From IMG/VR virus record IMGVR_UViG_3300042691_003980, positions 1 to 32,964 of that record: a stretch of 32,964 nt of DNA; one strand, written 5' to 3'. The position numbers and the translations under genes were made by a program. Of this stretch, positions 27,149 through 29,751 are shown piece by piece; positions within the stretch are counted from its first letter, which is position 1, and each line of letters opens with the position of its first letter. The notes below the pieces were generated by a model. The model had not been told where the DNA came from. It saw only the letters and a program-made list of their open reading frames with translations, and made no database searches. Source of the DNA: a virus.

Positions 27149-27528
27149 TACGCAATCCTCATAAGTTCGACGACCTGCTTAGGCCTGTTGATCGTCGTGG
27201 TTACTGAACCTTTTTTCCACATCTTGTGTGCAGCAGACGTGGCCGATGCTTGCACATCGAGAGCGTCATATTTGCCAAAAGGAATATCGACAACGTCACC
27301 AACCATCATTGGGTTGAGATGGGTGCGGACGTAGGTCGATCGCTCGCCATGTGGGTGCTTTCGGACCCCACTGCGCACAATAGGCTCTTTGACGGCTAGG
27401 AGGCCGTGTTTGTTGCCAATAGGGTCAATGATCGCGTAAGAGCATTTCATGCCCTCCAGCAGCGCTATAGCGCGTTTGAGCGCCACTTCTTGGATCTGTG
27501 ACATCTGTAAAACTGATTGCTGGCTCAT
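27148..27528 (-). CDS. Conserved early phage protein, unknown
   Basis: 126 residues: a helical N-terminus (MSQIQEVALKRAIALLEGMK), then CSYAIIDPIGNKHGLLAVKE, HPHGERSTYVRTHLNPMMVG, VVDIPFGKYDALDVQASATS and a C-terminal GSVTTTINRPKQVVELMRIA. The pattern recalls a family common in early regions of freshwater phages, without known function. The alternation of a helix with a strand-rich basic part, and the S-x-T-T...I-N-R segment, suggests nucleic-acid binding, but this is weak. ATG 27528 has GGAG 7 nt upstream and overlaps the upstream stop as ATGA; the ATG at 27540 is inside the upstream gene and lacks a site. Confidence 0.7.
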   Translation of the reverse strand: MSQQSVLQMSQIQEVALKRAIALLEGMKCSYAIIDPIGNKHGLLAVKEPIVRSGVRKHPHGERSTYVRTHLNPMMVGDVVDIPFGKYDALDVQASATSAAHKMWKKGSVTTTINRPKQVVELMRIA

Positions 27529-27809
27529 ATTGCCCTCCAAACTCGTTGTGATCGTCCTGACTCTCCTGTGTGTTCCTTTTCGGTTGGCTCCGCATAGCCT
27601 GCTTTTTGCAGGTCAGGGAGCCGTCGCCAGATCTGGTCTGGACGCAGCCCAAGGCGGGCCGCGAGTTGCTCAAAAGTGCCATCGCCTTTTTTGAGTTCTT
27701 GGTAGATCTTTGAGCAAATGTTGGTGGCGAATTCATCGACGCGAAGTGCAGCCTTCTTTGAGCTGCTTGGATCTTCGAGTCGCGCCAACTTGCGTGGTTC
27801 GATGTGCAT
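27525..27809 (-). CDS. Winged-helix/HTH-like DNA-binding protein
   Basis: 94 residues from ATG 27809 (AAAGG upstream; earlier in-frame ATGs lie in the SSB-like gene). The centre reads GTFEQLAARLGLRPDQIWRR followed by LPDLQKAGYAEPTEKEHTGE, which is helix-turn-recognition-helix then the wing of a MarR/winged-helix fold; the ending SGRSQRVWRAI forms the last strand. The family is frequent in phage early regions. It may regulate early transcription, or participate in replication as a small DNA-binding protein. The N-terminal half is basic and helical (SSSKKAALRVDEFATNICSK). It is located between the SSB-like gene (16 nt gap) and an unknown gene (ATGA overlap). Confidence 0.75.
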   Translation of the reverse strand: MHIEPRKLARLEDPSSSKKAALRVDEFATNICSKIYQELKKGDGTFEQLAARLGLRPDQIWRRLPDLQKAGYAEPTEKEHTGESGRSQRVWRAI

Positions 27810-27825
27810 GCCAGTTGCCTTTAGG

Positions 27826-28485
27826 TCAGAACGGAATATCATCATCCATGTCATCAAAGCCCGAACCTGTGTTCGTGGGCTTTCTTACTGGCGTTTGCTC
27901 TTGGCCACCATTACGGCCACGCCATTCTGGTGAGCCTTGGATCTTTTCCTTCAAGCTATTGCCAAAGGTCTCAAACAATTCCATGTCAGGGTTTTCAATC
28001 ACAAACATGGCCAGCTTGTTGAAGCCTTCAGGCAGCCCAGCCTTTTTGATTGCAGCAGGCACAGGGTTGATCGACATGATGTTGGTGTACTCTTTGCCGT
28101 TGTTGCCCATGGACTTGGCCACGCTCAACATGCACCACGCGCCAAGCACGTTCTTCAACTCAAAGCCACGCAGCTCGTCGGCAGTGAAGTCACGGCCACG
28201 CCAAGCTTGCAGGTCCTTGCGCAGTGTGGCCTTCTCAGCCAACGACAAGGTGAAGTTCTTGCTGATTGACATTGGCTCGCCTTTGGCTGTCACCAGCGCT
28301 TTGCCACTGTCGTCTTCGCCGTGGACCTCAAACTGGATCATGACCTTTTGAAGGTGCTTGACCTGTCCTTGGTACTCGGACTTCTGTGTGCCCAGATCCA
28401 CAATACGGTAGCACCGTGCGAGGTGCATCCCTGCGGCTACTGGGGTAAAGCTTCCGCCGCCGCTGTCTTTCGCTGTCAAACTCAT
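27826..28485 (-). CDS. Single-stranded DNA-binding-like protein
   Basis: 219 residues. The N-terminus (AGMHLARCYRIVDLGTQKSE; GQVKHLQKVMIQFEVHGED) reads like strands of an OB fold, followed by RGFELKNVLGAWCMLSVAKS. The end, GSGFDDMDDDIPF, is almost identical to the acidic tip of bacterial SSB (DDDIPF), which recruits repair and replication proteins. This is strong evidence for an SSB-type role although the OB domain differs from bacterial SSB. The gene overlaps the upstream gene as ATGA and is separated from the HTH gene by 16 nt. It shares an operon with a PD-(D/E)XK nuclease, so recombination-dependent replication is a reasonable inference. Confidence 0.85.
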   Translation of the reverse strand: MSLTAKDSGGGSFTPVAAGMHLARCYRIVDLGTQKSEYQGQVKHLQKVMIQFEVHGEDDSGKALVTAKGEPMSISKNFTLSLAEKATLRKDLQAWRGRDFTADELRGFELKNVLGAWCMLSVAKSMGNNGKEYTNIMSINPVPAAIKKAGLPEGFNKLAMFVIENPDMELFETFGNSLKEKIQGSPEWRGRNGGQEQTPVRKPTNTGSGFDDMDDDIPF

Positions 28486-28659: not shown

Positions 28660-28764
28660 TCAGTTCTTGGCCAAGTAGTAACCCAAAGCAACAAGCACAA
28701 TGACAAAAACACCGTGCCCTGCACCAAGCAAGAATCTAAGAATCGCTGTAAAAATATCTTTCAT
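28660..28764 (-). CDS. 34-residue membrane protein, first gene of leftward operon
   Basis: A tiny gene: MKDIFTAILRFLLGAGHGVF then VIVLVALGYYLAKN. It is a single hydrophobic helix with charged ends. The weak ribosome site CGAAAGCG precedes ATG 28764. The stop is 1 nt from the next start. Its place as first gene after the leftward promoter candidate, in a compact operon, argues that it is a real gene and not chance. Function unknown; small early phage membrane peptides commonly modify the host envelope. Confidence 0.65.
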   Translation of the reverse strand: MKDIFTAILRFLLGAGHGVFVIVLVALGYYLAKN

Positions 28765-28776
28765 AATTCGCTTTCG

Positions 28777-28809
28777 AGTTAAAGTTTCGCAACTGTATCA
28801 AATTTAACT
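28777..28809. promoter_or_regulatory. Candidate operator: 7-bp inverted repeat
   Basis: AGTTAAA (28777-28783) and TTTAACT (28803-28809) are perfect inverted copies separated by 19 nt. Their centre (28793) falls on the -10 box of the leftward promoter candidate. A dimeric repressor such as the adjacent HTH protein could bind here and block leftward transcription. Confidence 0.45.
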
Positions 28810-28820
28810 TGGAAGTACAA
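28792..28820 (-). promoter_or_regulatory. Candidate leftward early promoter
   Basis: On the minus strand TTGTAC (28820-28815), 17 nt, then TACAGT (28797-28792), preceded by TGA to give an extended -10 (TG-A-TACAGT). It would start transcription about 20 nt ahead of the 34-residue membrane gene. Confidence 0.5.
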
Positions 28821-28825
28821 CCCCC

Positions 28826-28853
28826 TTGCGCAAATATTTTTTTAATGTATGAT
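28826..28853 (+). promoter_or_regulatory. Candidate rightward early promoter
   Basis: TTGCGC (28826-28831), 16 nt, TATGAT (28848-28853; 5 of 6 match to the -10 consensus), 29 nt before the HTH gene start. The -35 overlaps the palindrome TTGCGCAA (28826-28833), another possible binding site. Confidence 0.55.
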
Positions 28854-28882
28854 GCGCTTAAACCAACACCGAAAGGAAATGC

Positions 28883-29092
28883 ATGACACTTGATGAATTT
28901 TTTGAAACAAAGCCACGAGGAGCGAAGCTGGCCATGGCCACTAAGCTAGGCGTGAGCAAGACGTGGTTGAGCCTCGTCATCTCAGGAAGGGCGCTCGCTA
29001 GTCCTGAGTTGAGTGGGGCCATCGAGCGCTACACCAGAGGTCAGGTGACGCGCAAAACATTACGGCCTGACATCTTTGGAGACCTAAAGTGA
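28883..29092 (+). CDS. Cro/YdaS-like helix-turn-helix regulator
   Basis: 69 residues. GAKLAMATKLGVSKTWLSLV followed by ISGRALASPELSGAIERYTR is a compact HTH of the Cro/YdaS type: helix 2 (KLAMATKLG), turn, recognition helix (SKTWLSLVISGR), then a helix and the terminal RKTLRPDIFGDL, which resembles the V/T-R-x-x-L-R-P-D-x-F end of YdaS-like proteins. It has a strong CCGAAAGGAAA ribosome site. As the first gene of the rightward operon next to a divergent promoter region it is the natural candidate for controlling the switch. No CI-type repressor with a cleavable C-terminal domain is seen in the window. It overlaps the next gene as GTGA. Confidence 0.82.
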   Translation: MTLDEFFETKPRGAKLAMATKLGVSKTWLSLVISGRALASPELSGAIERYTRGQVTRKTLRPDIFGDLK

Positions 29093-29751
29093 TTTGGTAC
29101 AAATTCCACCTTGGTGACTACATCACCCACACCACGCATCTTAGCGATGCAGAGGACTTGGCTTACCGCCGCCTGCTGGATTTGTACTACATGAGCGAGA
29201 CTGAAATCCCACTCAATACCGAATTGGTTGCACGCAAAATCCGCCTTGATTTGGACATAACCGAATCGGTTTTGGGTGAGTTTTTTGAAAAGACCGAAAA
29301 AGGCTATTTCAACCATCGTTGTGATGCTGAAATAGCACGTTACAACAAACAAGTCGAAAATAATCGATCCCTTGGGAAGCGAGGCGGCAGGCCGAAGAAA
29401 ACCGAATCGAAATCGAATCAAAACCGAAAGTTAACCCTAACAGAAGAAGAAAAAGAAATAAATACCATATCGTCGCAAGCGACAAAATCGCGATTTGATG
29501 ACTTTTGGGCTGTTTGGCCACCATCAAAACGAAAAGTCGCTAAATCGGCCTGTGAGGCGAAATGGAAGCGTCAAGCACTAGACCCCTTAGCCGACAAAAT
29601 TATCGCCTCTGTGACCCGTTTAAGGGCCTCTGAGCAGTGGTTATCGGGGTTTGATCCCGCCCCACTAACGTACCTGAACCAAAAACGGTGGGAAGACGAC
29701 TCAGAAACCAATTCGGTTAACGGTTCGGTTTTTGCTCGGAGGGTGATATGA
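29089..29751 (+). CDS. DUF1376 (YdaU-like) replication-region protein
   Basis: 220 residues with GTG start (GTGA overlap with the HTH stop). The N-terminal MIWYKFHLGDYITHTTHLSD, then AEDLAYRRLLDLYYMSETEI is diagnostic of DUF1376/YdaU, a winged-helix-like domain related to replication initiators. A basic linker follows (SLGKRGGRPKK). The C-terminal part (FDDFWAVWPPSKRKVAKSAC; TYLNQKRWEDD) is the helical domain found in replication proteins that load helicase or bind DnaC-like factors. It most likely helps start phage DNA replication. It is upstream of the primase zinc-finger and helicase genes. Confidence 0.85.
   Translation: MIWYKFHLGDYITHTTHLSDAEDLAYRRLLDLYYMSETEIPLNTELVARKIRLDLDITESVLGEFFEKTEKGYFNHRCDAEIARYNKQVENNRSLGKRGGRPKKTESKSNQNRKLTLTEEEKEINTISSQATKSRFDDFWAVWPPSKRKVAKSACEAKWKRQALDPLADKIIASVTRLRASEQWLSGFDPAPLTYLNQKRWEDDSETNSVNGSVFARRVI

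Follow-up and report, generated by a model that had tools for sequence, protein, structure and literature searches.

Which protein controls a short stretch of DNA between two divergent phage operons, and through which sites? This question is raised by the window (the whole virus record that was analysed, 32,964 bases in length), in which leftward genes for an exonuclease, a phrog_862 protein, and small ORFs occupy 25.4–28.8 kb. From 28,883 on, the genes run rightward and encode a YdaS-like HTH protein, a DUF1376 protein, a CHC2 primase piece, and a DnaB-type helicase. The YdaS-like gene is the first of this early rightward operon, and the divergent promoters lie in the adjoining intergenic region. 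As an earlier note had it, 118 nt separate the two operons, from the start of the leftward 34-aa ORF at 28764 to the HTH start at 28883; close relatives have a similar small hydrophobic ORF bordering the region on its left. The same note proposed a two-way switch run by the adjacent HTH protein, acting on an inverted repeat around the leftward -10 box and on a palindrome over the rightward -35. Our comparison of related phages indicates that this compact region is probably controlled in both directions by that protein, but that the sites had been chosen wrongly (Table 1).

Table 1. Features of the divergent control region and the genes beside it, in window positions
Feature	Positions	Strand	Remarks
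34-aa small hydrophobic ORF, predicted membrane	28660..28764	-	First gene of the leftward operon
O1, weak candidate for a third operator ATTCGCTTTCGAGTTAAAG	28766..28784		Over the P_L start; contains the left arm 28777-28783
P_L -10 TACAGT	28792..28797	-	Extended TG at 28800-28799
O2, candidate 19-bp operator ATTTAACTTGGAAGTACAA	28802..28820		Overlaps the P_L spacer and -35; contains the right arm of the repeat
P_L -35 TTGTAC	28815..28820	-	TTGTAT in most relatives
P_R -35 TTGCGC	28826..28831	+	TTG invariant, C 88%, rest variable
O3, candidate 19-bp operator ATGTATGATGCGCTTAAAC	28845..28863		Overlaps the P_R -10 and start; GTGTATGAT... in most relatives
P_R -10 TATGAT	28848..28853	+	TAACAT or TAATAT in other clades
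YdaS/Cro-like HTH repressor (predicted), 69 aa	28883..29092	+	Pfam PF15943; predicted recognition helix, residues 26-33
DUF1376 primosomal-type replication protein	29089..29751	+	PF07120, E 1.8e-20; second gene of the P_R operon

Using the HTH protein as a query in IMG/VR, 46 and then about 90 loci were collected, and 59 distinct versions of the region were aligned once duplicates had been removed. Conservation was expressed as pairwise identity among distant pairs, i.e., phages with HTH proteins below 80% identity. Such pairs agree at 38% of the four-fold degenerate sites in the HTH gene; the -10 and -35 boxes of the rightward promoter P_R reach 84% and 75%, and those of the leftward promoter P_L 70% and 64%. 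The promoter-like -35/-10 pairs reported previously for both strands are indeed present, and judging by their conservation both back-to-back promoters are real. P_L has a spacer of 17 nt and an extended -10 (TGA-TACAGT), with A28792, T28796, and A28797 invariant; the spacer of P_R measures 16 nt, and 5 nt separate the two -35 boxes. A generic sigma-70 scan called neither promoter. MerR-type activation was rejected since the spacers are 15–17 nt and not 19, and a host IHF site was discarded because its consensus was unmet on inspection.

Outside the promoter boxes, the blocks 28802-28809 and 28858-28867 are 74% and 69% identical in distant pairs, while the sequences flanking them show 28–37% identity. 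Because these blocks are held as constant as the promoter boxes amid drifting flanks, they are, on this comparison, two real further elements besides the promoters. The earlier suggestion to compare related phages for conserved repeats thereby led to promoters and two blocks that are kept, but the repeat and the palindrome are not. Annotated phages gave no DNA match, and in the nearest YdaS phage (MW202545, 46%) no clear operator match was seen by eye.

Sequence comparison places several pseudo-palindromic sites of about 18–19 bp over the two promoters, namely the candidates O2 and O3 and the weak O1. The right arm of the repeat, inside the first conserved block, forms one half of O2, and in clade B this site becomes a near-perfect palindrome (TGTAATTTnAAATTACA) at the same place. 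The second block is a half of O3, the site covering P_R, which had gone unnoticed in the earlier note. O1 is the third-best position of the intergenic region (1.3 bits), ranking 14 in the window, 3 in G026, and 6 in G012, and it is absent in several clades; the left arm of the repeat is at best half of this weak third site. Within the intergenic region the symmetry is modest (4.6 of 9 pairs for O2 and 4.75 of 9 for O3, with other centres scoring alike), and such counts, taken within this region alone, leave the register undecided. For O2, a register of 20 bp was dropped, as the distal sites described below and clade B fit 19. The 13-bp palindrome CAARTTTAAYTTG at 28799-28811 was likewise set aside: the extended -10 TG of P_L accounts for its CA, and the distal sites do without it. 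In one relative that was read directly, a 76-aa gene is inserted on the same strand between the control region and ydaS (L077:2680-3000), and the divergent control region, O2, O3, and the operon are retained despite it; L076 and L081 carry the same inserted sequence.

Sites of the same kind occur well beyond the control region. When five relatives (53–56 kb) were scanned with P_L and P_R matrices, each genome showed one P_L, one P_R, and weak matches elsewhere that share GTTTAA-N7-TTAHAC. More generally, a palindrome-like 19-bp site, RTKTAA-N7-TTAHAY, is found at further promoters of the longer relatives, mostly 4–10 kb downstream of P_R. The intergenic rightward promoters with such sites lie 3.6–9.5 kb downstream, and most distal sites of the five scanned relatives fall in gaps just upstream of rightward genes (4.9–9.2 kb downstream of P_R). 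In one example, TTGACTTCGTTTAACTTTGAGTTATACT, the 19-mer covers the spacer and the -10, and a search by -35/-10 only recovers many of the distal sites. The window ends 4.1 kb past P_R, so its own distal sites are not seen. The pattern [AG]T[TG]TAA-N7-TTA[CTA]A[CT] has 35 matches in 15 SKTW-type records and none in base-reversed controls. Not every match need be a site, as some are inside coding sequence or a long way from P_R.

A symmetric matrix built solely from 16 distal sites places O2 first and O3 third among 32,946 window positions, a ranking that is partly circular as it was weak matches to the P_L and P_R matrices that first drew attention to the distal sites. A pair resembling O2 plus O3 was reached in 0.06% of shuffles of the intergenic region. 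In three relatives that contributed no training sites, O3 and O2 rank 1 and 2 (G026) or the two sites rank 3 and 4 (G012 and G028).

Farther away, an operator-like 19-mer (GTGTAATGTGAACTTAAAT and variants) is found at +15579 in G007, +15820 in G009, and about +15730 in G019 (if circular), relative to P_R. Because the GTGTAATGTGAACTTAAAT-type 19-mer stands just before an 846–850 aa portal/structural-like gene in G007 and G009, control by the YdaS-like repressor may extend to where the structural genes begin. In G003 (the L009 record) the contig has its distal site 47 kb leftward of P_R, a position compatible with +5.6 kb in a circularly permuted genome. G024 (the L065 record) carries another palindrome, TAGCAAGTTGCTA (or TAGCAACTTGCTA), in two promoter spacers at +8279 and +9190 from P_R, perhaps the site of a second regulator.

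The link between these sites and the adjacent protein comes from clade C (e.g., L037 and L094). Its YdaS-like protein has TKQWMAA in place of the SKTW(M/L)SL of the others, with changes that include T27Q and S30A, and in the structure model this segment falls at the recognition helix. The distal promoters of clade C, found by -35/-10 alone, carry GTGAAATATGGTGTTACAC, GTGAAATACGGTGTTACAC, and GTGAATTACCGTGTTACAC, and its O3 reads GTGTATGATCAAGTTTCAC; GTGAAA stands in place of GTTTAA at orthologous distal promoters and at O3. The two long clade C records, G011 and G018, have GTGAAA-type sites at three promoters each and GTTTAA-type sites at none, and no GTGAAA-type sites were found in the 15 SKTW-type records. 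The genes behind two clade C distal promoters, and behind a third (the G018 copy), are orthologous to genes behind GTTTAA sites, and a 254-aa protein, 78–81% identical, is encoded under GTTTAATTCCAGGTTATAC and GTTTAAGTTGGTGTTAAAC as well as under GTGAAATACGGTGTTACAC. A distal-site matrix for clade C ranks O3 first in G022 and G023, clade C fragments that supplied no training sites. The P_L spacer of this clade retains TTTAACTT despite the changed half-site. Of all the evidence that the YdaS-like protein would be the one reading these sites, this co-variation of half-site and helix is the strongest, and it amounts to one evolutionary event. As for the genes themselves, a conserved gene of 254–256 aa, located under promoters 6430 (G007), 5952 (G019), and 6765 (G011) downstream of P_R, encodes a HELAHVVLGH-like zinc-peptidase motif, and its product presumably resembles ArdC-type proteins.

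The 69-aa protein itself matches the YdaS HTH domain PF15943 with 42.5 bits against a cut-off of 30, and its AlphaFold model has a pLDDT of 91.7. The best structure match is the N-terminal domain of CP-933P YdaS (8co2, TM 0.87, 41% identity; sequence E 3.6e-11). CP-933P YdaS represses both promoters of a 97-bp divergent region to which it binds; 18-bp palindromes with the half-site GTTTAGTAA lie in the footprinted region over both divergent promoters, the exact binding sequences still having to be determined (PMC8630535). The window protein shares its family and fold with YdaS of the cryptic prophage CP-933P from E. coli O157:H7 (and with Rac YdaS). Both the window and CP-933P have divergent promoters in a region of about 100 nt and 18–19-bp palindromes over both promoters, with 9-nt half-sites starting GTTTA (PMC8630535). 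They differ in that the window system is without a CI/PaaR2 partner, has the half-site GTKTAAYTT instead of GTTTAGTAA, places replication/recombination genes and not an immunity operon on the leftward side, and, in its relatives, has additional sites at a number of distal promoters that all point one way. Because the fold matches that of CP-933P YdaS, which represses both divergent promoters, the window system would, by sequence and analogy, work as a Cro-type repressor. As with lambda Cro (OR and OL), a small HTH protein is the first gene product of the rightward early operon, and the candidate operators lie across core elements of two divergent early promoters; in contrast to lambda, P_L and P_R are adjacent, without cI between them and without tripartite operators. 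Mycobacteriophage L5 maintains lysogeny through one repressor, gp71, which acts on many dispersed operators/stoperators along the genome. Sites are numerous in both systems, but here they lie at promoters and not within operons.

In 18 records, no S24 peptidase (the CI-type repressor) was found, and no CI gene stands divergent from the cro-like gene as in lambdoid phages; HTH_3 gave no matches over the cut-off, and those listed appear to be the YdaS-like genes. A tyrosine integrase or serine recombinase, the mark of a temperate phage, was likewise absent from these 18 records, five of which are 52–56 kb long and which are possibly incomplete. We infer that the phage group is apparently virulent. 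Distant relatives of its helicase (50–56%) reside in Burkholderiales prophage-like loci, where an S24 repressor is found beside a YdaS/Cro gene. A search of 84,980 genomes with a narrow pattern returned no HTH relatives. A 27-kb contig in a Limnohabitans MAG (L140, CAMDXR010000008.1), which shares the control region and encodes a helicase with 95% identity, is a lead to Limnohabitans as the host genus.

Taking together the promoter geometry, the conserved half-sites, the shared distal sites, and the co-variation of half-site and helix, we consider it quite likely that this is an early control region without CI, where a YdaS-like repressor acts on O2, O3, and the distal sites as a negative-feedback timer. 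P_L would drive the leftward operon (small membrane ORF, phrog_862 protein, and exonuclease) and P_R the rightward one (YdaS/Cro-like repressor, DUF1376 protein, primase piece, and DnaB-type helicase). As the first product of P_R, the YdaS-like protein would bind as a dimer to 19-bp pseudo-palindromes with a half-site of about GTKTAAYTT, thereby occupying the -35 and spacer of P_L (O2), the -10 and start of P_R (O3), and the -10 boxes of distal promoters in the longer relatives. Such binding would exclude RNA polymerase, so that accumulating repressor would lower transcription from P_L, from P_R as its own promoter, and from the early promoters farther on.

Other readings have to be weighed against this one. 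If the repeat singled out in the earlier note is the operator, a repressor dimer or tetramer would use a single site made up of the arms AGTTAAA (28777-28783) and TTTAACT (28803-28809), centred at 28793 on the leftward -10. The 7-bp inverted repeat is indeed perfect and straddles the -10 in the window, and 11 of 57 distinct versions have both perfect arms. However, when the 118 nt are dinucleotide-shuffled, a perfect 7-bp inverted repeat with a gap of at most 40 arises in 39% of cases, the arms of relatives are spaced by 19, 20, or 26 nt, and the left arm is lost in many clades (GTTAAA is kept in 25/57 versions, and the arm is 50% identical in distant pairs). Moreover, the right arm belongs to a 19-bp site that is found elsewhere without the left arm, and we regard the single operator as very improbable. 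The palindrome TTGCGCAA, present at 28826-28833 over the P_R -35 as described, shares this fate as a control site: it coincides with the -35 itself, where TTG alone is fixed and the sequence varies freely afterward, it occurs in 13/57 versions, and an 8-bp palindrome appears in 59% of the shuffles. For one 118-nt sequence, both repeat and palindrome are within chance expectation. One could go further and see unregulated, constitutive divergent promoters whose repeats arose by chance, a view that the shuffle test on the single sequence favours; the non-promoter blocks are nonetheless conserved like promoter boxes across 59 versions, which makes this extremely unlikely.

The blocks might also serve a phage-modified polymerase or sigma factor as promoter elements, or an activator as binding sites, and the distal sites do always lie in promoters on the strand of P_R. 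Against this, the position relative to the start runs from about -35 to -17 at P_L, from -15 to +4 at P_R, and from -26 to -8 at the distal promoters; such a varying register to the -10 fits an operator and not a promoter element. In addition, both -35 and -10 look sigma-70-like, and activators rarely lie across a -10 or start, so that we regard this option as very improbable. A different phage-encoded or host regulator could bind the sites instead of the YdaS-like protein: further HTH-like proteins exist, such as that with a weak winged-helix match at 27528-27857, and co-variation was examined for the YdaS-like protein alone. Yet, the switch in half-site coincides with T27Q and S30A in the predicted recognition helix encoded by the very gene that adjoins the sites, and the homologue of known structure recognises a half-site that is alike (GTTTA start) and arranged in the same way, leaving some chance, albeit a low one, for another regulator.

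With the YdaS-like repressor as the preferred reading, it seems probable that a CI-less, Cro-only circuit times early infection in an apparently virulent freshwater phage family. Its operators would lie at P_L, P_R, 2–6 distal early promoters, and possibly the start of the structural genes, and it would have undergone a natural specificity switch (SKTW to TKQW, GTTTAA to GTGAAA) at all its promoters. Cro has usually been studied as the antagonist of CI. A Cro-like protein with its set of candidate operators, in phages where no CI was found, would thus offer a natural test of what Cro does alone, i.e., feedback shut-off of early genes, and the paired change of helix and operator at orthologous promoters would allow specificity within the YdaS family to be compared cleanly.
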